This document shows positions 22,097 through 36,936 of a stretch of 64,000 nt of DNA, in pieces. How positions within the stretch are numbered: position 1 is the first letter of the stretch; every line of letters starts with the position of its first letter. A program made the translations under genes and the position numbers. The stretch lies in the NCBI RefSeq assembly GCF_001202035.1, contig NZ_LGHT01000023.1:1-64000 (forward strand), read 5' to 3'. This DNA is from Pseudorhodobacter wandonensis (GTDB lineage: Bacteria > Pseudomonadota > Alphaproteobacteria > Rhodobacterales > Rhodobacteraceae). Under the pieces are notes generated by a model, which was not told the origin of the DNA, searched no databases, and saw nothing but the letters and a program-made list of their open reading frames with translations.

Positions 22097-23170
22097 ATGG
22101 CAGATTTCGACAGCAAAATCCGTGAAAGCCAAGAGCAAGTGGCAAAAGCGCAAACGAAGATATCCGAAGTCACCAGCCGGATTGAGGCCGCTCGCGCCAA
22201 GATTGAGGCAGGTGAGGCGGCGATTGACGTAGAAAGCGCCACGCTGGACGATGTGCACAAACATACCGACCTGATGAACGCCAATATCGCCGATCTGATC
22301 ATGGGGCTGGATGATGTGACGGCCGGCTTTAGCCGCGATTTCGATGAAATGCGCAACAAGACAGGCATGGAAAGCTTTATTGGCGTTTTCTCGAATGCCA
22401 AGGCAGAATCGATGCGGCAGGAACGTATGCGCGCGGCGTCGATCGACGACAAGTTGCAGGATTTAATCGGAAAATCGGATATAATTGTCAAGCTGTTGCA
22501 AGGCCAGTTGGATTTGCTGAACGGCCAGAAAAACAGCGTGGAAACCAACCTGACTGCAACGCTGGACGAGCGCGAAGCAACGGTGGGCAGCCTTGAATCC
22601 GTGCGCGCCGAGATTGCCGGCATGGACCCCGCAATTATTGAATTGGAAAACAAGATCAGCGTCGAGCAAGACGCCGCCAAGCGCACCAAGCTGGAAAGTG
22701 AATTAGCCGCGCTGAACACTCGCTACAATGCGCTGGTACAGCAAGAGCAGGTCGATCTGGCCAAGTCGCAAACCCTTGAACGCTATATCGAAAAGGGAAA
22801 AACATGGATGGACAGCTTGCAAAACCAAGCGGCCACCCAGATGGTGCTTATCAACAAATTGCAGACCGACACCAAGCAGCGCGTGGTGCTGTATGATGCG
22901 CTGACCTCATCCTTGAAAACTGCACAGCAGCAGGATGTAGCCCACCGCATCAACGAAATCGGCGTGAAAACCGACCAAGAGGCGCAGGCTGCGATGGCGG
23001 CGATTGGTACCGCCACCAACAACCGCATGGCTGATATGATGGAAGCGCACGAAGACCACATGGTCTTTGCCCGCAAAGTGCTGGAAGCCAAGGCCAAAGC
23101 GGATGAGCGGTTCGCCCGTCGCTTTGCTGCAATTGTCGAAAAGCATGACAAAAACCAGTATGGCGGCTGA
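22097..23170 (+). CDS. Long coiled-coil protein, first gene of an uncharacterised cluster
   Basis: A 357-residue protein made almost wholly of helices with heptad-like patterns (residues about 1-60, 130-230 and 240-340), rich in Gln, Glu, Lys and Ala, without signal peptide or membrane segment. I do not recognise the family; it superficially resembles PspA- or TelA-like helical proteins but lacks their motifs. ATG 22097 has CGGAG with 6-nt spacing; ATG 22067 is possible. It starts a same-strand block running to 32033 with a AAA+ ATPase, suggesting a scaffold or substrate for that machine. Confidence 0.72.
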   Translation: MADFDSKIRESQEQVAKAQTKISEVTSRIEAARAKIEAGEAAIDVESATLDDVHKHTDLMNANIADLIMGLDDVTAGFSRDFDEMRNKTGMESFIGVFSNAKAESMRQERMRAASIDDKLQDLIGKSDIIVKLLQGQLDLLNGQKNSVETNLTATLDEREATVGSLESVRAEIAGMDPAIIELENKISVEQDAAKRTKLESELAALNTRYNALVQQEQVDLAKSQTLERYIEKGKTWMDSLQNQAATQMVLINKLQTDTKQRVVLYDALTSSLKTAQQQDVAHRINEIGVKTDQEAQAAMAAIGTATNNRMADMMEAHEDHMVFARKVLEAKAKADERFARRFAAIVEKHDKNQYGG

Positions 23171-23171
23171 G

Positions 23172-23414
23172 ATGCGGCTATGGCGGGCCACGCTGCGGGC
23201 GCTTGAGGTGGTCTATGTCATGTTCTTTGGCGAAGGCGATCGCTGGTCGGTTTGGGCTGTGGTCATGGCGGGTTTGGTGGGCCTGTTCCTATGGGCCGCG
23301 ACCGACGGCTTTATCGCGGCCCCCAGCCTTGGGCAGATCGTGTTTATGGCTGTGTTCGTGGCGATTAGTGCAGTCGGCGTCTATATTCGCCGCAAGAGGA
23401 AAGACGATCAGTGA
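23172..23414 (+). CDS. Small two-segment membrane protein
   Basis: About 80 residues with two hydrophobic segments (WAVVMAGLVGLFLWAATDGF and LGQIVFMAVFVAISAVGVYI) and a basic tail RRKRKDDQ, so both ends should face the cytoplasm. The start is uncertain: ATG 23172 directly follows the preceding stop, while ATGs at 23145 and 23160 overlap it. The stop overlaps a GTG start of the next gene (GTGA), a sign of coupled translation. Function unknown. Confidence 0.65.
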   Translation: MRLWRATLRALEVVYVMFFGEGDRWSVWAVVMAGLVGLFLWAATDGFIAAPSLGQIVFMAVFVAISAVGVYIRRKRKDDQ

Positions 23415-24535
23415 ACACCTTGATGGATGATCATGCAGAGCTTTATGATACCGCCATTGTCCGGCGCTATTTTGACAAGTTTGACCGGATTACCGGCCAT
23501 CTGGCCAATGTCGCGGCGGAACTTGAGGCCGAGGGCCATCTGACCAGAATCGAGTCACGGGTTATCGGCGGCTATGTGCAGCGGTTGAACCTGACTTTTC
23601 AGGCGCTTGGCTACAAATATCTGATGACGGGGCGGGTCGATGGGCCCTTGCCCGGCAAGCTGACCTTTGACCGGCATGAATCCGGCTTTCCGGTCGCGCA
23701 AGAACTGATGGTCATGGCCAATGACGCGCAGCAGGCCGAAAAACATCTGGCGCAATTGCCCACTGATACCGAGCTGAAAGATGCGATGATCCGGCAGATT
23801 GTGGGTGAGTTGGCCATCCCGACCAAGCTGCAATTCACCATGTCGCAGCGGCTGTATTATGAAAGCCTGCGCGGCGGGCACCAGTTTTGGGCGCGCAATG
23901 ACGCTGACGTGCAATGGCTGGGCGAAACATCGGACCGCAAGTCGTGGCTGGTGCATTGGGCGGTTTATGATACGCAAACCAACTTGCCGGTGATCTATCT
24001 GATGAACCTTGAGGATAGCGGAAAAACGCCGCTTCCGCGTGACAATCGGCGCTGGCCGCAAGTGCAGGCGCATCTGATGGCGCAAAGTCTCGACGGGTTA
24101 AAGCTTGTGACGATTGCCAAAGGCTTTGATACCGATTTTGATGACCTGCACCCCAAACGCCTGCGCCGCATCCACCTTGGGCCGATGTATTCCAGCAGTT
24201 TCACACTGCAATCCGGCCCGATTTCGGAGGTTCTGGCCGATGCCAAACCCGAGCCGGGCCAGGATTGGGCATTTGTCTGGACGGTTGAGGATTTGTTGGC
24301 AGAACGCGAGGAAACCGTGAAAACCGGCTGGTTTTCATCTGCAGAACGGCAGATTTTCGCTTCGGGTCCGTTCATCGGCAAAACGCTGGCCGACATTGGC
24401 GCAACCAATATGGAGCGAATGTTGATCATGCCCGAACGTCCGTTTCAGGCCTTGGCAGAAAAAAGCCCGCCGGGTTTTGCCGATATTCGCAAGTTTGTTG
24501 TGGGCGCGGGGGACCGCGTTTTACCGCAGCGGTAA
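23411..24535 (+). CDS. Uncharacterised 374-residue protein
   Basis: Soluble protein of unknown family. It has a helical N-terminal third (AELYDTAIVRRYFDKFDRITGHL) and a mixed C-terminal part with WLVHWAVYDTQTNLPVIYLMNLE and LGPMYSSSFTLQSGPISEVL. No nucleotide-binding or catalytic motif is clear. The GTG at 23411 overlaps the preceding stop; ATG 23423 is an alternative. It sits 18 nt before the AAA+ ATPase gene and so may be its partner or adaptor. Confidence 0.68.
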   Translation: MNTLMDDHAELYDTAIVRRYFDKFDRITGHLANVAAELEAEGHLTRIESRVIGGYVQRLNLTFQALGYKYLMTGRVDGPLPGKLTFDRHESGFPVAQELMVMANDAQQAEKHLAQLPTDTELKDAMIRQIVGELAIPTKLQFTMSQRLYYESLRGGHQFWARNDADVQWLGETSDRKSWLVHWAVYDTQTNLPVIYLMNLEDSGKTPLPRDNRRWPQVQAHLMAQSLDGLKLVTIAKGFDTDFDDLHPKRLRRIHLGPMYSSSFTLQSGPISEVLADAKPEPGQDWAFVWTVEDLLAEREETVKTGWFSSAERQIFASGPFIGKTLADIGATNMERMLIMPERPFQALAEKSPPGFADIRKFVVGAGDRVLPQR

Positions 24536-24553
24536 GATTAAGGAAGTGCCAAG

Positions 24554-26494
24554 ATGACCACACGTGACACGATGGAACTGCGCGAAGACGATATTAAATC
24601 GCATTACCGCGCGGCGACCGAAATGCTGATGGGGGTGGATCACTCTCCCCGTATCGGCACTGCACGACACACGGCCGTGGCACCTGAAAAATCGCCGGGT
24701 GTGGCGGCCACAGGGCGCAGGTTTCGGTCTACGACCCCGGGTTTGGTGACGCGCAGTACTGCGCGGGCCGAAGGGGTGCGCCTGTTGGACCGGATCGCCG
24801 ACAAGGATGATGACGACCCGCTGACTTCGGCACTTCAGGCCACGGTGGGGCAGGCATTGCGTCGGGCCTTGGCAATTGCACTGGCGGTAGGGCAAGAGTT
24901 TGCGCGCCAAACGCCGCTGGTAGAGCTGAAAAAAGCAAATCTAGAAGGCCGTTTGCCTGCCGAGCGTAAGGCCGAATTTACCGAGCTGTTGGCTGCCGAG
25001 GCATTGGCGGTGCTTTATACCTTTGGCAATGCAACCGCGTTTTTGCTAGCCCCGCAAACGAATGAACGCACTGCCGAGATTGGCCCTGTGGAGGAAATTC
25101 TGACCGATAACGCGCCGCTGGCCTTGCATGGCGCGTTGTGGGAATTGGACCAAACCATCGCCGCCCATGCAAGCGATGACGCCAGCCTTGTTGCAACGGT
25201 TCTGGCCTATGCCGAGCAGCTTATGGCTGCGGTGGCACTGCGCGGCCAAGATGCGCCACGGCTTGCAGGCTTTACCGCGGCAAGCTGGCGGGTCGAGGCC
25301 GACAAGCTGACGATTGCGGGCTTCAAGCCGGCACTGGCTGCGCGCGGCACGGCGCTGACGATGACGTTCAAAAAGCCGAATGAGGTGGTGGGCAACCATA
25401 TCGCCAAATACCAATCCTTGCGTTTGGCCAAGATGCTGATGGCCTATGATTTTGACCGCAAGTTGAACCCTTTTGCCGAAATGGGCGGGTTTATCTTTAC
25501 CTTTATGGGTGATGGCGCACCGGGAACAGGCAAGACAACGCTGATCCAGATGATGGCAGGATTATTGAATGATTACTGCAAGGTAGCGGGCTATCCGTTT
25601 CGCTATCAGAACTTTTCGATTGACCAGATCGACAGCTATCAAGGCAAATCGGGGCAAAATGCCAAAGCCTTTATTACCAATGTTTTGGACCCTGCGGTGA
25701 TCGGGTTCGGGACGATTGACGATATCGACCAAATCGCGGGCAAGCGCGGCGACAAGCAATCATCCGCAGGCCAGCAAGAGGTGACTGCCGTGTTCATGGA
25801 GGCCTTTGCAGGCGCGAATACTGTGGTGCGCGGCAACTGTACATTTGGGATGTTTTCCAATTATCCCGAAAATGTCGATGATGCGCTGCGGCAACGGGCG
25901 GGTGCGCGGTTCTTGGTCGATGGGCCGCAAACGCGCGACGACTACATTGATATTCTCGCCCTGCTGATGGGCAAAAACCATAACATCCCGGTGGGTGACC
26001 ATGATTTATTTGCCGCCCAAGAAATGAAACGCGCCGTCGCCGCCAGCTTTGAGGGCCATTCCCGCCCGCATGAAGACGGGTTGTTGAAAGTATGGGACCA
26101 GGTGGGCCGCGATATTGGGCGGCTGGACACGATTGTTAAACTGGGCACCTACTTGAAGGCGATTCAAGAGGCCGACCCGCGCTTTACCGGCCGGGCGATC
26201 AAGAACATCACCGATGCTGTAAAAGTGCGGGCGATGGATTTTGAACTGCCGGATGAGTGGATGGAACAGCCGGACTTGTTTTTGTTTAAGGGCTATGACG
26301 AAAAGCTGGCGATGATTAAGGGTATGCAGCAGCCGATCACCGTTGAGATGGTTGTGCAAGAAATCAACCGCTATGCGGATTCAGAGTTCCGCTATGCCGA
26401 CAAGTCGGACGAGGTGGCCATTTCGAACATGATCCGAGATTTTGGACGGCAGGAAGAGGCCAAGCGGCGGTATTTGGAGGGGAAGGGATCATGA
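24554..26494 (+). CDS. AAA+ family ATPase of the uncharacterised cluster
   Basis: A 646-residue protein with a long N-terminal region (about 310 residues, no recognised domain) and one AAA+ module. Walker A is GAPGTGKTTL near residues 320-329, Walker B lies in GFGTIDDIDQI near 386, and the sensor/arginine-finger part reads SNYPENVDDALRQRAGARF. The C-terminal lid includes FTGRAIKNITDAV. This is the ATPase core of classical AAA proteins (spastin/ClpX-like remodelling enzymes). No membrane segment; the nearby small membrane proteins may recruit it. Repeat copy C follows its stop. Confidence 0.82.
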   Translation: MTTRDTMELREDDIKSHYRAATEMLMGVDHSPRIGTARHTAVAPEKSPGVAATGRRFRSTTPGLVTRSTARAEGVRLLDRIADKDDDDPLTSALQATVGQALRRALAIALAVGQEFARQTPLVELKKANLEGRLPAERKAEFTELLAAEALAVLYTFGNATAFLLAPQTNERTAEIGPVEEILTDNAPLALHGALWELDQTIAAHASDDASLVATVLAYAEQLMAAVALRGQDAPRLAGFTAASWRVEADKLTIAGFKPALAARGTALTMTFKKPNEVVGNHIAKYQSLRLAKMLMAYDFDRKLNPFAEMGGFIFTFMGDGAPGTGKTTLIQMMAGLLNDYCKVAGYPFRYQNFSIDQIDSYQGKSGQNAKAFITNVLDPAVIGFGTIDDIDQIAGKRGDKQSSAGQQEVTAVFMEAFAGANTVVRGNCTFGMFSNYPENVDDALRQRAGARFLVDGPQTRDDYIDILALLMGKNHNIPVGDHDLFAAQEMKRAVAASFEGHSRPHEDGLLKVWDQVGRDIGRLDTIVKLGTYLKAIQEADPRFTGRAIKNITDAVKVRAMDFELPDEWMEQPDLFLFKGYDEKLAMIKGMQQPITVEMVVQEINRYADSEFRYADKSDEVAISNMIRDFGRQEEAKRRYLEGKGS

Positions 26495-26512
26495 TGGTCT
26501 TTGTGACAATCG

Positions 26513-26571
26513 CTGGGGGGGCTGTCTGCCCCCCCAGACCCCCCCGAGGATATTTTAGCCGAAAAGAAAGC
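26513..26571 (+). repeat. Intergenic repeat, family 1 copy C with long G/C hairpin
   Basis: A perfect 9-bp hairpin CTGGGGGGG / CCCCCCCAG (26513-26521 with 26529-26537) followed by CGAGGATATTTTAGCCGAAAAGAAAG. This type is frequent in Rhodobacteraceae intergenic DNA (from memory). Here it interrupts the cluster between the ATPase and the next gene, and the bases just after it (AGGGGGT) serve as that gene's ribosome site. Confidence 0.75.
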
Positions 26572-26585
26572 AGGGGGTGTTTTTA

Positions 26586-26912
26586 ATGAACATTTTGGTC
26601 CTTGCTTTGCTTGTTGTTGCGGGCTTTGTCTTTATCACCTTTGCCGTTGTGCCTTTTGTAACCCGTCCCGCGATGTTGTTTGACAAAGGGCCGTCCCATG
26701 CGCGGATGATGGGGATACTCATTTGCGGGAGTGTGGCGGTTGCGGTGTTGTTTGCGCTGAATCCTGACCGCATGGCTGACTTGAAGCCGAGGTTTTGGGA
26801 GGCGGCAGGGTTGGCAGGTTTCTCGGCTATCTTCTGGTTGCCGTGGTACCTATTTGCATTCACCCGCCGTGCCAATTTGGTAAAGGCCACGACTGAGAGG
26901 GGCCGATCATGA
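26586..26912 (+). CDS. Small membrane protein with three hydrophobic segments
   Basis: A protein of 108 residues. Segments are MNILVLALLVVAGFVFITFA (1-25), ILICGSVAVAVLFAL (about 46-62) and LAGFSAIFWLPWYLFAFT (about 78-98). It is not a family I recognise. ATG 26586 has AGGGGGT 8 nt upstream; the in-frame TTT/ATG possibilities before it lie in the repeat. Its stop overlaps the next gene by 4 nt, so it belongs to the same operon. Confidence 0.68.
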   Translation: MNILVLALLVVAGFVFITFAVVPFVTRPAMLFDKGPSHARMMGILICGSVAVAVLFALNPDRMADLKPRFWEAAGLAGFSAIFWLPWYLFAFTRRANLVKATTERGRS

Positions 26913-28270
26913 AACGTCTTATCCAAAAGGGGCTGATGTTCGGGAATCTGGTCGAGGTTTCTTCGCCCGCGCTGATTGAACGCTATAACCGCGCCCTGGA
27001 GCACTTGGCGGGCAAGCGCACAGTTCTCACAGATTTTCACATTGATATTTCCGGGTTTTCGCCCGAGATCGGTGACGAATTGGGTGATGATCGTTATCTT
27101 AACCCCAACGGCTGCAATCGGCAGTTTATTTTGCTGACCACAGCGCAGAAAGCCGCGCCTCTGTTGAACGTGACGTTTTCGACATCGCGTGGTGTGCTAA
27201 AGCAGTTTATCGAGGCGAATGAGGCGCAGTTATTTGCCCTGACTGCCCGCGATGCCGTGGCTGGCGAGCTGTTTAACAGTGTGTATGAGGTATCTAACCC
27301 CTCGCGATTGCTGGATATTCGCCGAATTACGGTAGAAGGCGACACGATTGGCGGGCATGTCGCCGATGCGGCCAAACTGGGCCAGATGATTGAGCGTTTT
27401 CGCACTGAACCAACCGGGTGGCGCGATGATGTTTTGATAGCCGAGATGATCGGGTTGGCGAAAAAGACCGGTGATGTGACGCGGGTACCGATTGCCCTGC
27501 CCAAGATGGCATTCGAACAAGCGAATTTCTGGACCTCGCATTTCGGCGGTTTGTACGTGTTTCGTGATGCCAGTTTTCCGGCGGTGATTTCGGTGCTGCC
27601 GCGTGACAGCCTTGGCACGCTGCCGATTGACCAGGTGATGGACCTGAGCCAGCGCAACATGATCGCGGACTGGCTGGAGAAAAACGGGCTGGTCGAGCCG
27701 ATTGTCAAGGCACGCGGCATGGACAGTGCGGCGGTGCTGCGCCAGAAAATGGACTTCATTCTGGTTGAGGCAGCAGATGCGCTGAACCTTGATCTTGGCC
27801 ATGCGACACGAAATGACTTGCGTAAAATCGCGCAGCGTTTGGGCGCGAACTTGCCGCAAGAATTCCTTGGGCTTGCGCGGCTTTTGGCATGGGTAGAAGG
27901 CGGAGGTGACTGGCCGCGGATTACGTCCGAGCACCCTGCCTATTTTTACACGCTGCGCTCGCGCCCGCACAAAGACCGCGATTTGGTTAACATGTTGCTC
28001 AGCCAGCTTGCGCCTTTGGACGTGCGGCAGATGTTCATCACCCACAAAGAATTGTTCTACGCCAGCTATGCCAGATGGTCCGACCGGAAACGCGGTTATG
28101 TTGCCGATTTTCTGGAACGAGAGTATCAAGTGGATAAGGCGGGCGCGCGTGCTGCCCTGTTCGGTGCCGAGCCGGGCATGGATGAGGCCGAGCGTTCCGA
28201 ACCGAAACCCAGCCCAACGATGGCCGATCTGGTCGGCCCGTGGGGCGCCGTTCGAAAGGCCCGCAAATGA
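26909..28270 (+). CDS. Uncharacterised 453-residue protein of the cluster
   Basis: Soluble protein without clear catalytic motif. It opens with a beta-rich section (LTDFHIDISGFSPEIGDELGDD) and continues mostly helical, with LRKIAQRLGANLPQEFLGLARLLAWVEGGGDW and a C-terminal Asp/Glu-rich tail. It may belong to one of the recent Rhodobacteraceae DUF families (I think DUF6638, not certain). It overlaps genes on both sides by 4 nt (ATGA), a strong sign that it works with its neighbours. Confidence 0.72.
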   Translation: MKRLIQKGLMFGNLVEVSSPALIERYNRALEHLAGKRTVLTDFHIDISGFSPEIGDELGDDRYLNPNGCNRQFILLTTAQKAAPLLNVTFSTSRGVLKQFIEANEAQLFALTARDAVAGELFNSVYEVSNPSRLLDIRRITVEGDTIGGHVADAAKLGQMIERFRTEPTGWRDDVLIAEMIGLAKKTGDVTRVPIALPKMAFEQANFWTSHFGGLYVFRDASFPAVISVLPRDSLGTLPIDQVMDLSQRNMIADWLEKNGLVEPIVKARGMDSAAVLRQKMDFILVEAADALNLDLGHATRNDLRKIAQRLGANLPQEFLGLARLLAWVEGGGDWPRITSEHPAYFYTLRSRPHKDRDLVNMLLSQLAPLDVRQMFITHKELFYASYARWSDRKRGYVADFLEREYQVDKAGARAALFGAEPGMDEAERSEPKPSPTMADLVGPWGAVRKARK

Positions 28271-28533
28271 TTGGATTGTTTCGCCTGATGCTGTTCGGCT
28301 TTATCGGCATGACGATCATGTTCTTTTTGCTGAACCTCTATTCGCGATCGGTTCAGCGCGAAGAACTGGAAAAAGAATGGGATGCCACGCAGAGCCCCGG
28401 CGACCGAGAGGAGTTTATCGCCTCGGGTATGGCCGCCTATGAAAAGGGTCTGCGTAAAAAGTTGATTTGGTTGGTCTATGTTCTCCCGACGCTGGCCGTG
28501 ATAGCCGCAATCTATCTATTGAATTTTTCCTGA
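28267..28533 (+). CDS. Small two-segment membrane protein
   Basis: A protein of 88 residues: one membrane segment at residues 2-26 (LMLFGFIGMTIMFFLLNLYS), a charged loop SVQREELEKEWDATQSPGDR, and a second segment at about 64-87 (LIWLVYVLPTLAVIAAIYLL). Similar small proteins occur beside DUF1523 genes in related bacteria (from memory). ATG 28267 overlaps the preceding stop; the upstream in-frame ATG 28240 lies inside that gene. Function unknown. Confidence 0.72.
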   Translation: MIGLFRLMLFGFIGMTIMFFLLNLYSRSVQREELEKEWDATQSPGDREEFIASGMAAYEKGLRKKLIWLVYVLPTLAVIAAIYLLNFS

Positions 28534-28543
28534 GGGACCGCCA

Positions 28544-29197
28544 ATGCGCTATGTAAAATGGACATTTTTCACGATCATAGCAGTTTTGCTATTCTCGTTC
28601 TTTCACTACACATTGCCCCAGCATGATATTGTGCGGATCGTTGGCACCGAAAACCGCCGCATTGATTTTGGCGAAAATTCGTTCTTTTGGGCCAGCCCAG
28701 ACGTGGGAACCGCGGCAGGGACCAACCGCGATGTGCGCTTTATCAATGCTGAAAAAGCCAATGGTAAAATAATCGTTTATCGCAATGAAGATACCGGCTG
28801 GGGGTGGCCACCGTATTTCAAATTGGACAGTTCCAACCTGCAAGCCGAAGCGCAGGCTTTGATTTCGAACGACAAGGCAAACCCGATTTGGGCATCGATC
28901 ACGCATTACGGTTGGCGCAATGAGTTTTTCACCATCTATCCGAACGCAGTTTCGGTAAAGGTGGTCGATGGGCCTGATGTGCGGATTATTCCATGGTTCA
29001 ACATTCTGTTCTTGATTGTGTTGTCTGGCGTGCTCTTTTTACTGTGGCGGATGTGGGCGCAGTTTCGCGAGCGCACGATTGACCCGACACTGGAAAGCAT
29101 CGGCGACACGATTGACGAGCTTGATGAGACCGCCGATAGTGTTTGGGCGCGCTTTAAGGCATGGCTGGCGACTTGGACCGGCAAGCCGCGCCGTTAG
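28544..29197 (+). CDS. DUF1523 family membrane protein
   Basis: A 217-residue protein with an N-terminal membrane segment (residues 5-24), a periplasmic domain with the family's distinctive YRNEDTGWGWPPYFKLDSSNLQAEA (residues about 80-105, read in parts) and ITHYGWRNEF, and a second membrane segment near 150-168 followed by a cytoplasmic helical tail. DUF1523 proteins are common in Rhodobacteraceae and have no assigned function. It follows the previous gene by 10 nt. Confidence 0.85.
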   Translation: MRYVKWTFFTIIAVLLFSFFHYTLPQHDIVRIVGTENRRIDFGENSFFWASPDVGTAAGTNRDVRFINAEKANGKIIVYRNEDTGWGWPPYFKLDSSNLQAEAQALISNDKANPIWASITHYGWRNEFFTIYPNAVSVKVVDGPDVRIIPWFNILFLIVLSGVLFLLWRMWAQFRERTIDPTLESIGDTIDELDETADSVWARFKAWLATWTGKPRR

Positions 29198-29225
29198 GCA
29201 TTTTGGGGGATAGGCAGGGCGCAGC

Positions 29226-32033
29226 ATGGATGAGCTAGAGATGTTGGTCATCTTTGCAGGGACCGCAGCATTGCTGGTCGTACTGCTTGTTCCCTATTTA
29301 TTCTTTTCGCATCTTGGCCTGAAATCAAAGGTCAATCGATTAGAGCAGCTGATAGTGCGATTGCAATCAGAGCTTCAGGAAAAGTCCAGCTCGTCGCAGG
29401 GTGAGCAAACGAAAGCTGCGACGATTTCGCCTCAGGCGGCGAAAGAGCTGCAATCTGCGCCCCCACAGGCGCCGATACCGCAATTCTGGCCCAAAGCGCC
29501 GCCACAGCCCGCGCCGGACGAAGTGCTGCCGCCTGTAGCTTTTGTGTTCAGGACTGATCTGATCAGTAAGTTGATGACATGGCTGCGCGAAAACTGGGTT
29601 CTGGCGATCGCGGCTGCGTCCTTGGTGCTGGCCGGCGTGTTCATGGTGCAATATGGCATCGAGAATGGATTGTTGACGCCGTTCTGGCGGGTGACAGGGG
29701 CATTGGCGTTTGGTGCGGCGCTGATCGCGGGGGGCGAGTATATTCGCCGCAAAACCGGTGATGAGTTTGAAGATGGCGATGCGGTGGGCGCGACACGGTT
29801 TTTGCCCTCTACCCTGTCTGGTGCGGGCATTGTTGTGCTCTATGTGGCGGTGTTCGCCGCCCGCGCGCTTTACGGCCTTATCGACCCGCTAACCTGCTTT
29901 GCAGGGCTTGGCGTCGTGTCGGCGGTCGCGTTGGTTTTGGGCTGGTTTTACGGGCCGGTTCTGGCGGCGGTGGGTGTGTTGGGGGCGTCACTTGCGCCGT
30001 TCATCACCGGCAGCAGTTCCGACAACGCGTGGATGGTTCACTACTATCTGGCCATTGTTGCTATGGTCGCGCTGGGAATTGATACGGTTAAGCGTTGGGC
30101 CTGGATTTCGGTGCTGGGCCTGGTGGCGACGATTGCAGGCTCGTGGTTGCTGTGGCTCGATCGGGTTGCGGATTTGCACTTTCTTGCGGGCGGCTTGATA
30201 ACTTGGTTCGCGGTCCTTGCCATCCCCGAACGCGGGCTATTTCCACGCCAAGCAGGGGCTGCGTTCTTAGATGCCGCGGTAACGCGGGGCAAACTGCGGC
30301 CCGAGTTTCCGACGCGCATGGCATTTGGTACCACGCTTGCCGTCACAATTGCTGCGCTTGCTGTGGCCGCCAACGCCCAGTCGCCTGATACCGTTTGGCT
30401 GGCGGTATTCACATTGGCGCTAATGATTGCAGGCACAACGCTGTGGACGCGTGACGCGCCCGCGCTGTATGATCACGTGCTTCTCCCCGGGTTTGCGTTT
30501 CTGGCAATTCTCGCCTTTGAGGGCAGCAATTACGGCCCATTATTGGGCGAATTCCAACAGGCCGGCATCACGGTTGCGGTGGGCGAGGCAACGCCGGTTG
30601 CAAACCCTGTACCGATGACGGTTTGGGTGTTGGCAGGGCTTGGTGCGCTTGGAACGTTGTTGATGTTTTGGCGGATGCAAAGCGCAGTGCAGAGCGCTGC
30701 AGTAAGCCGCAGCTCCGCGTTTTGGGCCTTTAGTGCTGCGGTTTTTGCCCCAACAACCCTGATTATCCTAGAGTTCCTGTGGACACCAGGAGCGGTGCTG
30801 GGGCAATATCAATGGGCGCTTGCGGCAATAGCGATGGCGGGCTTGACGGTTCTGCTAACCTTACGCGCCCAAGCCGCAGATAAGGGCGCGCCATTGCGCA
30901 TGGGCCTGTTTGCCGTAGGTGCGCTGACGCTGATCACACTGGCTGTGTTCCTTGTGCTGACAAAATCGGCGTTGACAGTGGCGTTGGCGGTCATGGTGCT
31001 GGGCACGGCGCTGTTGGATCGCCGTTCCCCAATGCCGCCGTTAAGCTATTTTGTGCAGATCGCCGTTGCGATCATCACGTTCCGGCTTGTGGTCTGGCCC
31101 GGGTTTGACTGGGCCTTGGGCTGGGATTATACCGCCAACCTGTATGAAATCGCTTATTTTGAGGTGGCTTTTGCCTTCCTTGCCACACTTGCACTGCTGG
31201 CCGCCGCATGGTGGATCTCGCGCGGTCAACGCCTGAAAACCGCGCTCGTGCTGGAAAGCGCGTGTTGGACCATACTTGGCGTATTTCTTGCTGTCACCCT
31301 GCTGCGCGTGGCGCCAAGAGAGGCAGGCGATAGCCATTGGGTCATGGGTCTGATGTCGGCAATCTGGTGCGCCTTGGCGCTGAACCAGCTGTACCGGATG
31401 CAAATGGGCGGCAAGATGATGACCATCATTCGCGCCATTGTTGCAGGGGTGTATGGTTTGGCAGCCGCGGGAACACAGTTTGTGCTGCTCTTTGTTTCCA
31501 ACCCTTTGTTCGGCTATAATGAATTGGTTCAAGGGCCACCGGTTCTAGATAGCCTTGCACTGGCGTTTTTGCCTCTTTGCGTGGTTTTCGCAGCTGCCGG
31601 GTGGAAGATTACCCATCTCGGCCGCTTCTTGCGCATCGGTTTCACCCTCGTGGCAAGCGCGTTTGCTGCGTGCTATGTCGGAATGGAGATCCGCCGCCTC
31701 TGGCGTGGCACCGACTTGTCGGTTCCCGGCTTTACTGACCCCGAGCTGTACAGCTATACGCTGGCCATGCTTGTCGCCTCGGTTGTGTTGCTGGCGCTAG
31801 CCTTTAGTCGTCGGTCCGATAATGTGCGCAAGATTGCGATGGCAGGTGTGGCGTTGACTGTTGCGAAAGTGTTCTTGGTAGATATGTCCGGCCTTTCTGG
31901 CTTGATTAGGGTGTTTTCTTTTATGGGGCTAGGGCTGTCGTTGGTTGGCCTTGCATGGCTAAATCAAAAGATGACAGCCCAATGGGAACGCAGAGCGCCC
32001 GTCAAGCCTTCGCCCAAAGCGCCATTGGTTTAA
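29226..32033 (+). CDS. DUF2339 family large polytopic membrane protein
   Basis: A 935-residue protein. One N-terminal membrane segment is followed by a coiled coil (LKSKVNRLEQLIVRLQSELQ), a Pro/Ala-rich linker (about 70-105) and then more than 20 membrane segments to the C-terminus. The motif WVLAIAAASLVLAGVFMVQYGIENG and GEYIRRKTGDEF are typical of DUF2339. The family is widespread and of unknown function; a role in envelope or polysaccharide processes is often guessed. It is the last gene of the block. Confidence 0.86.
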   Translation: MDELEMLVIFAGTAALLVVLLVPYLFFSHLGLKSKVNRLEQLIVRLQSELQEKSSSSQGEQTKAATISPQAAKELQSAPPQAPIPQFWPKAPPQPAPDEVLPPVAFVFRTDLISKLMTWLRENWVLAIAAASLVLAGVFMVQYGIENGLLTPFWRVTGALAFGAALIAGGEYIRRKTGDEFEDGDAVGATRFLPSTLSGAGIVVLYVAVFAARALYGLIDPLTCFAGLGVVSAVALVLGWFYGPVLAAVGVLGASLAPFITGSSSDNAWMVHYYLAIVAMVALGIDTVKRWAWISVLGLVATIAGSWLLWLDRVADLHFLAGGLITWFAVLAIPERGLFPRQAGAAFLDAAVTRGKLRPEFPTRMAFGTTLAVTIAALAVAANAQSPDTVWLAVFTLALMIAGTTLWTRDAPALYDHVLLPGFAFLAILAFEGSNYGPLLGEFQQAGITVAVGEATPVANPVPMTVWVLAGLGALGTLLMFWRMQSAVQSAAVSRSSAFWAFSAAVFAPTTLIILEFLWTPGAVLGQYQWALAAIAMAGLTVLLTLRAQAADKGAPLRMGLFAVGALTLITLAVFLVLTKSALTVALAVMVLGTALLDRRSPMPPLSYFVQIAVAIITFRLVVWPGFDWALGWDYTANLYEIAYFEVAFAFLATLALLAAAWWISRGQRLKTALVLESACWTILGVFLAVTLLRVAPREAGDSHWVMGLMSAIWCALALNQLYRMQMGGKMMTIIRAIVAGVYGLAAAGTQFVLLFVSNPLFGYNELVQGPPVLDSLALAFLPLCVVFAAAGWKITHLGRFLRIGFTLVASAFAACYVGMEIRRLWRGTDLSVPGFTDPELYSYTLAMLVASVVLLALAFSRRSDNVRKIAMAGVALTVAKVFLVDMSGLSGLIRVFSFMGLGLSLVGLAWLNQKMTAQWERRAPVKPSPKAPLV

Positions 32034-32685: not shown

Positions 32686-33000
32686 CTAAAGTTTTCTTAA
32701 AACTTCCGAGCGCCCAAAGGCTACTTCTGCGTCCTTGCGTGCCCCCATCCAAGCAACCGTCTGGCGCGCAAGAAGAATGTTCAGTTCGGATCGCCGTAAC
32801 TCTGCCCACCTTTCATATTGAAATGCTGCCGCTGCCGAAGCACACGGACCAAGTTGATCATCCGGTTCTACAACCAAATCGCTAAGGCGTTGCAAGCTTT
32901 GGTTTCGCGCCTCTGCACATGCGCGCAGGCGGGCAAGATGCTGGTTTAAGATAAGGTCAGACAGCGCCTTAAGACGTCTGAGGTTTTTCACATCTTTCAA
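32686..33000 (-). CDS. FliJ-like helical protein at the end of the flagellar operon
   Basis: A 104-residue, highly charged, all-helical protein (MKDVKNLRRLKALSDLILNQ) with no membrane segment. Size, helicity and place after flhB suggest a FliJ-type export chaperone or a similar flagellar accessory protein, but sequence identity to known FliJ is not evident to me. Its ATG overlaps the flhB stop by 4 nt. Confidence 0.62.
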   Translation of the reverse strand: MKDVKNLRRLKALSDLILNQHLARLRACAEARNQSLQRLSDLVVEPDDQLGPCASAAAAFQYERWAELRRSELNILLARQTVAWMGARKDAEVAFGRSEVLRKL

Positions 33001-34091
33001 TCTGGCCCCCGCTGCGCCGCAGTCTTTCGCTGACGAATGGATTCTGAATAGCGTATTGCGGCCGCGACAACGCGGTAATGGTCAGGGTGTACCTCTTGCC
33101 CGACGTCGAGCGATGCAAAAAGCATACGGGCCGTAGGCGGATCAGAGTGTAGTGGAATGGCGGCTTCTGCTGCGCGTTCGCGTATACGTTGCGCTATTTC
33201 ATCTACCCCTTTTGCGACACAAATGGGGGCGCGGCCGGAAAGCCTGTCCCACTTTAGCGCAACTGCAAAATGCGTCGGGTTCACGATTACAACGTCAGCT
33301 GTCCGCACATCTTGCAACATGCGGTTCGTCGCAATTTCCTGCCCCCTTTGGCGCCGTTTTGCTTTGGTGTGTGGGTCGCCTTCCGCGTTTTTATGCTCAT
33401 CCATCAGCTCTTTGCGCGACATCTTGTTTGACCTAAAGTGCTCTGCCCGTTGCCAAAAATAGTCGATCCCACCAATTGCAAGGACAAGCATGGCGATGAT
33501 GGCAAGAAAACGGATGACAATTTCAAACAGCATCGCGATGGAAACCGCCGGCGACAAATAGATCATGCGCAACAGGTCATCGGCTTGATGGCTTAAAAAG
33601 CTGAACAACAGAACAGAAATGATCAGCAGTTTCACAAAGCTTTTGAAAAACTCAAAAAGTCCCTTGCGGCCCAATTTATTTTTAATACCCGAAATTGGCG
33701 AGATCCGGTTCAGCTTTGGCGCAAGCTTGGACGGCGTGAATATCATGGCACGCTGCGCGAGAATCATAAGCGTGGCGGTCGCAAAAGGTATCAGAAAAAA
33801 TGGAGCAACCGGGCCGATCACTGTGGCCAGAACGGTAAAAACACTGCGCCCCGCACCTTTTGTCCACACGGCCGAAAGGCGGTCGGACTGCTCAAGTATT
33901 GCTGCTGCGGCCTCGCCCGATTTTGTGAGCATGCTTGCGCCAAGTGCCGCCCCTGCCAAAAGAAACCCCAAGTAGGCTCCCGCAGTAATCAGGTCATTCG
34001 ACCGCGGAATTTCGCCTTTTTCACGTGCGTCGGACAGCTTTTTGTCTGTGGCTTCGTGTTCTTTGTCCGAAGGGCTTTGCTCGTCGCTCAT
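32997..34091 (-). CDS. flhB: Flagellar export protein FlhB
   Basis: Export-gate protein of 364 residues that switches substrate specificity of the flagellar type III apparatus. It has an N-terminal cytoplasmic stretch, four membrane segments (about 35-55, 87-110, 150-170, 188-210) and a cytoplasmic domain with the autocleavage motif NPTH at about 271-274 in VVIVNPTHFAVALKW. The basic linker before the cleavage domain is present. Overlaps fliR by 4 nt. Confidence 0.96.
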   Translation of the reverse strand: MSDEQSPSDKEHEATDKKLSDAREKGEIPRSNDLITAGAYLGFLLAGAALGASMLTKSGEAAAAILEQSDRLSAVWTKGAGRSVFTVLATVIGPVAPFFLIPFATATLMILAQRAMIFTPSKLAPKLNRISPISGIKNKLGRKGLFEFFKSFVKLLIISVLLFSFLSHQADDLLRMIYLSPAVSIAMLFEIVIRFLAIIAMLVLAIGGIDYFWQRAEHFRSNKMSRKELMDEHKNAEGDPHTKAKRRQRGQEIATNRMLQDVRTADVVIVNPTHFAVALKWDRLSGRAPICVAKGVDEIAQRIRERAAEAAIPLHSDPPTARMLFASLDVGQEVHPDHYRVVAAAIRYSESIRQRKTAAQRGPD

Positions 34092-34867
34092 GGCGCACCT
34101 GCAAACGGGTTATTGAGGAAAGTGAGCAAAGCCATGTGCCAAAGTTGTAGCAAAAGAGGCGATGCCATCGCCAGCATCATAAGCCCGCCAAGCGTAAGGG
34201 CCGGCGCCCCAACAAAAATAACCATCAGTTGCGGCATCGCCCGGTTTATCACCCCAAGCGCAATGTTATAGATGAGCGAGGCCGCGATAAAAGGCGATGC
34301 CATCTGGAACGCCAGTGAAAACGCGTTGGCAACCTGCGAAACACCCCAGCTTGCAATATCCTCGCCGCTGGGCAAAACGCCGAGGGGCAGGACTTGGTAA
34401 GAATAGACAAAGAGCTCAGCGATACGGATGTGGAGCCCAAGGCTGACAGCCAAGGCCAGGCCGGTCATCACAAATAGATGCGACATTGTAGGTTGCGGTT
34501 CACCGCTTTGCCCGCCAAAAAGCTGCGAAAGCGAAGTTGCTTGTGCTGCCAAAGTGCCCGCAATTTGCAGGGCATGTACGAATAGCCGCATCCCGATGCC
34601 AATAACCAGACCGGCCAATACTTCAACGACAATTGGGCCCGCAAACGTGCCGCTATAGGGTCCGACCTGATCTGCGACGATCGGCAAAACGACCATCGTA
34701 TAACAAATGCCAATGGCCAACCGAACCCTTTGCGGAATAGCCTGTTCACCAAAAGCGGGCAGCAATGCCATAGCAGCCCCAACACGCAGGAACACCAAAA
34801 ATATGACCCAAACCCAGTGTTCGGTGTATCCGCTTGCCTGGGTCAGAAGATTGAGCAACTGGGTCAT
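34088..34867 (-). CDS. fliR: Flagellar export protein FliR
   Basis: A 259-residue integral membrane protein of the export gate, with about six hydrophobic segments. The characteristic FliR parts are FLRVGAAMALLPAFGEQAIPQRVRL (residues about 25-50) and LAAQATSLSQLFGG. It overlaps flhA by 4 nt and flhB by 4 nt, so the export gate is translated from one message. Confidence 0.94.
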   Translation of the reverse strand: MTQLLNLLTQASGYTEHWVWVIFLVFLRVGAAMALLPAFGEQAIPQRVRLAIGICYTMVVLPIVADQVGPYSGTFAGPIVVEVLAGLVIGIGMRLFVHALQIAGTLAAQATSLSQLFGGQSGEPQPTMSHLFVMTGLALAVSLGLHIRIAELFVYSYQVLPLGVLPSGEDIASWGVSQVANAFSLAFQMASPFIAASLIYNIALGVINRAMPQLMVIFVGAPALTLGGLMMLAMASPLLLQLWHMALLTFLNNPFAGAP

Positions 34868-36936
34868 ATTGGTACTTGGCCTACCATAGCGGGTCGGGCC
34901 TCAAGGCCGATTTCTTCATACGAAAGCACCGGCGCGTTTAGGCCTTTGGCACTCAATACTGTCCGCAGAAAACGACGACGAAGGGTCGAGGTGATAAAGG
35001 CAGGATGCAAGCCGCTCTCAGCCGCCTTGTTCAGTTTTTCCGCCAGATTATTTGCAAGTCGGCTAAACTGATCGGGTGGCAATGCTACATCGCGCTGACC
35101 CTTTTCGCCGTCAATCTGATAGGTGGAAAAGGCTTTTTCCCATTCGGGGGCCAGTTGAATAAGCGGAATTGTCCCATCCTCGCGGCGTAAGGCTGCCACG
35201 AGTTGAAAGCCAAGCCGTTGTCGGACGTGCTCGCAAATAACTTCTGGCGCTCCTGCCGAACGCGCTTCGGCAATACTTTCAAGAATGAGCGGCAAGTTCC
35301 GGATAGAGACCCGTTCCTCCAACAGAAGGCGTAAAACGGCTAGCAGCATATCGATGGGAACTTTGTCTGGTACCAGCTCGTTCAAAAGGCGCTTGTTTGC
35401 ATCGGCGCGCACCGGGTCCGACAAATTGGCAAACTCTTCCAGCAGGCGGCGTAAACCACGCAAAGACAGCAGGCGCGACAGATTGTTTTTCAGCACTTCA
35501 AGCAAATGGGTCGCAAGCACCTCTGTCGGCGAGACAACCGTAAGGCCTTGAATGGACGCCTGTTCCTGGGCATCCGGCGGAATCCACCTTGCGGGGGCCC
35601 CATAGACCGGTTCGCGTACGTCCATTCCTTCGGGTACCGGCAAGCCGTCTGACAGCAGTGCCAGTACGCGGTTATAGTACAACTTGTCGCGCACCTGCTC
35701 AACGCCTTGCAAGCGAATGCGGTAGGTTCCAGTTGGCAAGGATGGCTCATCCGTCAATCTGATTTCAGGCAGAATCAGGCCAAAAGCGCTAGCAATATGG
35801 TTGCGCATATTTGCGATGCGGGTATCAAGCCCCGTTGCAGGATCCAAAACCATCGCAACAAGGTCGGGCGCAAACTCGATGTGAATGTCATCAAAATCAA
35901 GGATATCCCCCATACGCCGCTCGGTTGGCGTTGCAACGCTCTCCTCCGCCTCGGGCTTTGGTTTGTTGGCTGCTTCGGCCCCCCAATAGGCCGCCGCCCC
36001 CAAAATCAGAGCGCCCAAGATAAATGGCAAAAACGGAAGCCCCGGCACCAATGCAAAGAGCGCCATCAAGAACGAAACTGTGGCCAATGCCCCGGGGTAC
36101 CTGCCAAGCTGTTCAAAGAACGACACATCCGCGGCACCGGTCTGTCCGCCCCGTGCCAAAAGCAGGGCCACCGCTATCGAAATGATGACGGCAGGAATCT
36201 GGCTGACCAACCCATCCCCTACCGTTAATATCGCATAGGTTTCAAAGGCCTGCCCGATTGGCATTCCGTGAACGACAGTACCGATTATCAACCCCATGAC
36301 AATGTTCAGCAGCGTGATCAACAGGCCTGCAACGGCATCGCCTTTTACAAATTTTGAGGCACCGTCAAGTGAGCCAAAAAAGTTCGTTTCCGCCAACTCA
36401 TTCTCACGCCGCCTTTTGGCTTCGGCGTGATCAATAGCACCGGCCGACATATCACTGTCGATCGCAAGCTGTTTGCCGGGCATACCATCAAGAGCAAAAC
36501 GGGCACCCACTTCGGCCATTCGACCTGCGCCTTTTGTGATCACCACGAAATTCACGATCAGCAAAACACAAAAGACCACGACGCCCAACAAAACCGAGCC
36601 ACCCATGATGAAATTTGCAAAGCCTTCGATAACCTTGCCTGCCGCCCCGGTTCCGGTATGGCCTTGGCCGATGATCAACTTTGTCGAAGAGACGTTGAGC
36701 GCGAGGCGAAGCATCAGAGACGCCAGCAGAATGGTAGGAAAGGCAGAAAACTCTAATGGACGCTGGATAAACAGCGTTACTGTAAACATTAAGATTGCGA
36801 GGGCGAAAGAGACGGCCAAGCCTATATCAAGCATCCAGGCGGGGACCGGCAAGACCATCATCACAATGACGGCCATCAGCGCGAGCGCGAGCAGAATCGT
36901 CGGTTGAAAAATCGTTTTGATTGTCAGGTTCTTCAT
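34864..36936 (-). CDS. flhA: Flagellar export protein FlhA
   Basis: A 690-residue export gate protein. About eight membrane segments fill the first 330 residues; the FHIPEP-region equivalent includes GARFALDGMPGKQLAIDSDMSAG (residues about 140-162) and ETNFFGSLDGASKFVKGDA. The cytoplasmic C-terminal domain carries GLTVVSPTEVLATHL and the helical lid. It is the usual size for FlhA and appears intact. It follows the lytic transglycosylase with a 4-nt overlap. Confidence 0.96.
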   Translation of the reverse strand: MKNLTIKTIFQPTILLALALMAVIVMMVLPVPAWMLDIGLAVSFALAILMFTVTLFIQRPLEFSAFPTILLASLMLRLALNVSSTKLIIGQGHTGTGAAGKVIEGFANFIMGGSVLLGVVVFCVLLIVNFVVITKGAGRMAEVGARFALDGMPGKQLAIDSDMSAGAIDHAEAKRRRENELAETNFFGSLDGASKFVKGDAVAGLLITLLNIVMGLIIGTVVHGMPIGQAFETYAILTVGDGLVSQIPAVIISIAVALLLARGGQTGAADVSFFEQLGRYPGALATVSFLMALFALVPGLPFLPFILGALILGAAAYWGAEAANKPKPEAEESVATPTERRMGDILDFDDIHIEFAPDLVAMVLDPATGLDTRIANMRNHIASAFGLILPEIRLTDEPSLPTGTYRIRLQGVEQVRDKLYYNRVLALLSDGLPVPEGMDVREPVYGAPARWIPPDAQEQASIQGLTVVSPTEVLATHLLEVLKNNLSRLLSLRGLRRLLEEFANLSDPVRADANKRLLNELVPDKVPIDMLLAVLRLLLEERVSIRNLPLILESIAEARSAGAPEVICEHVRQRLGFQLVAALRREDGTIPLIQLAPEWEKAFSTYQIDGEKGQRDVALPPDQFSRLANNLAEKLNKAAESGLHPAFITSTLRRRFLRTVLSAKGLNAPVLSYEEIGLEARPAMVGQVPI

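Follow-up and report, generated by a model that had tools for sequence, protein, structure and literature searches.

The first 64,000 nucleotides (nt) of contig NZ_LGHT01000023.1 of Pseudorhodobacter wandonensis (RefSeq assembly GCF_001202035.1), hereafter the window, carry nine consecutive genes on one strand, lettered A to I in order, which the original prediction had read as a single membrane-associated remodelling or envelope-stress machine built around an AAA+ ATPase. Here, we report that four of these genes, A (a coiled-coil protein), C (a soluble protein), D (the ATPase) and F (a DUF6638 protein), make up a real and widely shared AAA+ module, a conclusion that is well supported, and very probably encode one machine, as judged by sequence comparison. 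By the same comparisons, G and H are a separate, wider pair that is attached to this core in Rhodobacteraceae.

All nine open reading frames (ORFs) were found on the plus strand at the places predicted, and the junction sequences confirmed the 4-nt overlaps at 23411, 26909 and 28267. Transmembrane (TM) segments were counted with a simple hydropathy scan. Core gene A (22097-23170) encodes a 357-amino-acid (aa) coiled-coil protein whose start is backed by homologues; C (23411-24535), a soluble protein of 374 aa; D (24554-26494), a classical AAA ATPase of 646 aa (PF00004; E value, 2e-12), assigned from Pfam, profiles and a structure model; and F (26909-28270), a 453-aa protein of family DUF6638 (PF20343; E value, 1e-214; 713.6 bits against a curated cut-off of 27). 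C and F, placed in the core by Pfam and synteny, had been described as two large unknown soluble proteins; this holds for C, which like A matched no Pfam family, but not for F, whose family is itself without an assigned function in Pfam. Between the core genes lie B (23172-23414), an optional 80-aa protein with two TM segments (hydropathy and tblastn), and E (26577-26912), an equally optional 111-aa membrane protein with two TM segments that occupies a variable slot between D and F; neither belongs to the core. Downstream follow G (28267-28533), a small protein with two TM segments and the partner of DUF1523; H (28544-29197), the 217-aa DUF1523 membrane protein itself, with two TM segments and a wider distribution than the core (PF07509; E value, 4e-72; 241.8 bits against a curated cut-off of 23); and I (29226-32033), a 935-aa DUF2339 protein with many TM segments (E value, 1e-94). 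Pfam thus returned the families originally named for D, H and I.

Gene presence was scored by tblastn of each window protein in 80 loci, the best matches to the window's D among at least 578 relatives in the genome collection and therefore a set skewed to close relatives (the closest named relative of D among the matches listed was Pseudorhodobacter ferrugineus, with 93% identity). A was present in 78 loci, C in 79, D in 80, F in 75, and G and H in 73 each, and B was found in 2, E in 3 and an adjacent DUF2339 gene (I) in 2. Both missing copies of A and the one missing copy of C fell in loci starting at a contig end; G and H were missing from seven loci, five of which stop at one. The junctions F-G (−46 to 15 nt) and G-H (−4 to 20 nt) were tight; the A-C gap exceeded 150 nt in 45 loci, with other, divergent TM ORFs in 44 of these, and was shorter in 33 more. 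Mean identity over 71 loci was highest for A among the six genes compared (0.80), with values of 0.76 for D, 0.66 for F and 0.65 for C. Pairwise distances in these loci, computed ignoring shared ancestry, gave Spearman correlations of 0.53 to 0.66 within the quartet, 0.39 to 0.49 between the quartet and G or H, and 0.54 between G and H.

Co-occurrence was examined across the window's family, taken to be Rhodobacteraceae from those nearest loci that carry names, with a single genome from each of 120 genera (threshold for D, E ≤ 1e-50). The genomes with a match numbered 51 for A, 50 each for C and D, 54 for F and 106 for DUF1523; all four core genes were present in 50 genomes, none in 66 and some in only 4, namely G727, with fragments of A and F, and G704, G753 and G765, with F alone. 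The association of A with D gave a Fisher value of 3e-33 with relatedness ignored. DUF1523 occurred in all 50 core-bearing genomes and in 56 without D (52 of those with no core gene), and among five core-less genomes examined, G and H stood together in four and only H was recognised in the fifth. Since DUF1523 is also found in many genomes without the core, it represents a separate unit, and the pattern of co-inheritance as a whole points to A-C-D-F as one unit and G-H as another. The co-occurrence on which the original prediction had staked its single-system idea was therefore found for A, C, D and F, together with synteny, and fails for all nine genes, given the rarity of B, E and I and the separate standing of H.

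Beyond Rhodobacteraceae, DUF6638 was detected in 20 of 299 genomes of a phylum sample (10 from the window's family, own genome included; 8 from one rhizobial-type genus; 1 from another alphaproteobacterial family; and 1 from another class), and A in 7 of 385 genomes of a class sample. The order A-C-D-F was kept, with or without G and H, in eight distant loci read at length, which belong to the rhizobial type, to other Alphaproteobacteria and to one genome of another class, and recurred in Sinorhizobium meliloti, Shinella, Rhizobium leguminosarum, Vibrio vulnificus and V. parahaemolyticus (hidden Markov model E values, 1e-77 to 1e-244). G and H had no match in the stretches fetched from Sinorhizobium, Shinella, Rhizobium and Vibrio, and the core stood alone in the rhizobial-type loci. 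With the core lacking a nearby G or H in these stretches and in the rhizobial-type loci, neither the proposed role in envelope stress nor the proposed recruitment of the ATPase by small membrane proteins received direct support, and a nine-gene envelope-stress machine is too wide a reading. In S. meliloti, where G and H are missing, an annotated DUF2333 gene follows F (L164:13295-14518), and an ORF resembling DUF2333 by reading follows F in another locus missing G and H (L107:7814-8938); a PspA-like-looking ORF, again by reading, lies on the minus strand near DUF1523 in a further distant core locus (L104:6402-7115). The S. meliloti gene SMc02733 may lie within that species' copy, a guess of which no use is made here. 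A fragment in SMc02733 is listed in the ChvI DNA-binding screen of PMC3687685.

Profile matches and, weakly, fold place D among the classical AAA proteins. It has a helical N-terminal domain (residues ~91-260), an AAA cassette (~265-460), and then a lid and C-terminal helices. Its profile matches to solved structures were i-AAA (4e-5), VCP-like (1e-4) and proteasomal (Rpt) ATPases. Across 89 D sequences, Walker A, the pore loop SYQGKS, sensor-1 Asn436, arginines 446, 448 and 452, taken as arginine fingers, and the motif FTGRAIKN were nearly or fully invariant. Six distant sequences shared 76 to 90% identity with the window's protein over the AAA region and 28 to 60% over the N-domain (76-260), a pattern that a single motor with lineage-specific binding would give. 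In the model, the N-domain (~91-260) forms a helical bundle whose block means in predicted local distance difference test (pLDDT) score run from 71 to 92, and the AAA part gave fold matches to ATAD1, PAN, FtsH and Vps4 at Z scores of 7 to 8 with poor root-mean-square deviation (rmsd) from a weak model. The 50 fold-match rows among the matches listed for D were AAA proteins aligned over model residues 281-630 only, and Foldseek with the D model returned nothing at E ≤ 0.001. Pfam revealed no protease domain or recognised N-domain in D and no MIT domain at E ≤ 1, the N-domain being a predicted helical bundle that the fold search barely covered. With no protease domain found, remodelling appears more likely than degradation, and the AAA+ remodelling role first suggested for this protein is likely from its motifs.

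Conservation of A extends through to its C terminus from Pseudorhodobacter to Vibrio, with tail residues K332, D336, F339, R342, H350 and Y355 invariant in 19 aligned sequences including Vibrio. A fold search with the A model returned generic helical bundles at the top (best Z score, 12.1), and several alpha-helical pore-forming toxin folds scored between 10 and 12; all lie below the Z score of about 13 at which the tool advises caution with helical bundles, and with a weak model no fold or function is claimed from them. C matched no solved structure in a sequence search at E ≤ 10 and a single one at chance level (0.81) in another search, and F yielded nothing usable against solved structures (best, 0.034 over part of the protein). 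Profile comparison gave no support for a distant kinship between C and F (0.2%).

Beyond the observed gene order, co-inheritance and motifs, we infer a ring, a client, a direction of work and a location. A, C, D and F would form one cytosolic machine in which D, as its family suggests, assembles as a ring, engages a client through its variable helical N-domain and the putative adaptors C and F, and, at the expense of ATP, draws that client through a pore lined with the conserved Tyr-Gln-Gly loop. The likeliest client would be A, whose oligomers D may take apart, perhaps from the conserved C-terminal tail, in a manner comparable to that of Vps4 on ESCRT-III filaments, though A has no relationship to ESCRT-III detectable in Pfam. 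In Rhodobacteraceae, the G-H pair and the frequent small membrane proteins would give the machine an inner-membrane location. That D disassembles or remodels A by threading, with C and F as adaptors and near the membrane in Rhodobacteraceae, is the reading that we prefer, tentatively and at somewhat less than an even chance.

Several observations weigh against it. The predicted structure of A came out all-helical at a low confidence (mean pLDDT, 61.9), and the model of D was weaker still (mean pLDDT, 55.5; AAA part mostly below 50), for which the shallow alignment of close relatives on which it was built (29 rows, at least 73% identical) may account. By profile, A resembles neither of two known families of helical proteins: hhalign comparison, which took in a PspA alignment and no eukaryotic or archaeal ESCRT-III alignment, gave 2.0% and 3.2% for PspA, with no Pfam match, and 0.8% and 0.6% for TelA (PF05816). 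Walker B in D reads D389-D390 in 89 of 89 sequences and is invariant in the 19-sequence alignment including Vibrio; because the Walker-B glutamate is replaced by aspartate throughout, ATP may be hydrolysed slowly or in an unusual way. The client could just as well be C or F. In G704, G753 and G765, F stands beside G and H although A, C and D are missing (F lies at a contig end in G704 and G765), and F, G and H are absent from two of the 80 loci (L033 and L059) despite continuing sequence. The mechanism itself is drawn from gene and protein anatomy.

The alternative that survives best casts A as a structural scaffold or tether, with C, F or a protein encoded elsewhere as the client of D, so that the machine would serve another complex as chaperone or assembly factor. 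Both C and F are larger soluble proteins without an assigned function that are inherited with D, and as they share no profile similarity, one may be a client and the other an adaptor, in place of two adaptors; the high conservation of A, the best conserved of the six genes, however, suits a polymer or client no less than a scaffold, and we regard this alternative as possible but doubtful.

A second alternative, a stress or defence system with D as sensor or switch and exchangeable effectors between D and F, draws on the D-F junction, which is a variable cargo slot in Rhodobacteraceae. In the 80-locus set, its length ranges from −4 to 2382 nt against the tight F-G and G-H junctions; 69 of 73 gaps were at least 150 nt long, and 59 of 73 held at least one plus-strand ORF of at least 90 aa. 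Such ORFs numbered 71 and fell into 37 clusters (gap ORFs were picked mechanically with a mild plus-strand preference, and strand counts are therefore not used), the largest being a small multi-TM protein (15) and a 239- to 305-aa protein with one to three TM segments (10). Among the slot proteins, an Mrr restriction endonuclease, an AbiJ-type protein, a Schlafen AlbA_2 protein, DUF433 with PIN, DUF2971 and an exonuclease-BRCT protein occurred in one locus each and DUF559 proteins in two, and restriction, abortive-infection-like, toxin-like and membrane genes are spread across slots (for example, L050:12310-13233, L064:11961-13457 and L034:11941-13085). Matches in PADLOC at E ≤ 1e-5 were, however, obtained for 4 of 69 slot proteins (71 less one with masked letters and one of low complexity) compared with no more than 2 of the 69 controls, ORFs lying downstream of H (69 of 73 scanned), and, not being clearly enriched, do not demonstrate a defence role through slot content. 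Of the core proteins, D gave weak AAA matches in PADLOC (TRIP13, 3e-4; IetA, 0.006), A weak coiled-coil-type matches (best, LmuB at 0.002), and C and F none at E ≤ 1. In seven distant loci, the D-F junction was short or overlapping in five (at most 48 nt; 8 nt in L135), 234 nt in one, and 2129 nt in S. meliloti, where it holds an endonuclease gene and an insertion sequence; an endonuclease-like ORF was also read between D and F in L107. As the core is moreover slow-evolving and no phage or viral homologue of D was found (none in 50,697 phage records, and none confirmed in a scan of viral contigs), we consider a defence system unlikely.

Of known systems, Vps4/ESCRT-III (Cdv) is alike in setting a classical AAA motor gene beside a gene for a long helical protein, and the pore loop of D, with its aromatic residue and glycine, resembles that of Vps4. 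It differs in that the cluster has no MIT or ESCRT-III match in Pfam and two more conserved partners (C and F), and in that D has its own helical N-domain and a Walker B of DD, not DE. An ESCRT-III/Vps4-like machine of separate origin, in which D, served by C and F as dedicated adaptors, would recycle a filament of A, strikes us as improbable; it would be kept as a single unit across Alpha- and Gammaproteobacteria, and Rhodobacteraceae would have added a pair of membrane anchors as well as a slot for exchangeable effectors between D and F. True descent from ESCRT-III/Vps4 or PspA-type membrane remodelling is very unlikely, for although a coiled-coil protein adjoins a classical AAA ATPase whose AAA part matches the Vps4 fold (Z score, 7.0; rmsd, 17.6 over 231 residues; tied with many AAA proteins), the profile probability of A against PspA is 2 to 3% and no cluster protein matched ESCRT-III, PspA or MIT families in Pfam at E ≤ 1.

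The PspA operons that contain AAA+ ATPases, as described in passages of PMC11237479, likewise place a helical protein next to an AAA+ ATPase with membrane genes close by, but A is no PspA relative by profile and the quartet is not described in those passages. PspA (PF04012) had no match in the window's genome and was found in 13 of the 41 genomes searched. Clusters of TelA (toxic anion resistance) share a soluble helical protein with the present one, and the genome has a TelA gene of its own on another contig (contig 26; L137:5544-11045), whose neighbours resemble XpaC-type, SPFH-type and zinc-ribbon proteins by reading. They differ in that A has no TelA profile similarity and that this TelA stretch held none of six tested cluster genes. 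Classical AAA unfoldases (i-AAA/FtsH, VCP-like and proteasomal ATPases) share the AAA cassette and are the nearest solved relatives by profile, whereas D has no detected protease domain or recognised N-domain.

In the literature searched, DUF6638 was unmentioned and DUF1523 was mentioned once or twice per paper; the cluster was absent from titles and the opening parts of abstracts retrieved with DUF1523, DUF2339, DUF2333, accession or Pfam and topic terms. DUF6638 and two proteins without a family (A and C) now form one testable unit with a defined motor, from which DUF2339 and the small membrane genes are set apart as neighbours dispensable for first experiments. If D works on A, the unit would be a filament-recycling system not described in those titles and abstract openings, present in 50 of 120 genera of the family as well as in rhizobia and vibrios.

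The 82-nt spacer between D and E contains a predicted G+C-rich hairpin on the plus strand (26513-26537; 10-bp stem) followed by CCCCCGAGGATATTT at 26541-26555, a sequence with 53 copies in the genome at no more than one mismatch (reversed control, 0) that perhaps represents a family of terminators or of interspersed palindromic elements. With this hairpin and genome repeat in place, it is not certain that the nine genes share a single transcript. The repeat was rejected as a general insertion target for slot cargo, being found in only 1 of 74 D-F gaps of other loci, and promoter and terminator consensus scans gave counts no higher than in shuffled sequence (5 versus 6.3 and 9 versus 15.3). Elsewhere in the window are a thiamine pyrophosphate (TPP) riboswitch (RF00059; 2388-2495; 87.8 bits) and, beyond the cluster on the minus strand (32997-36936), ORFs that by reading resemble the flagellar export genes FlhB, FliR and FlhA.

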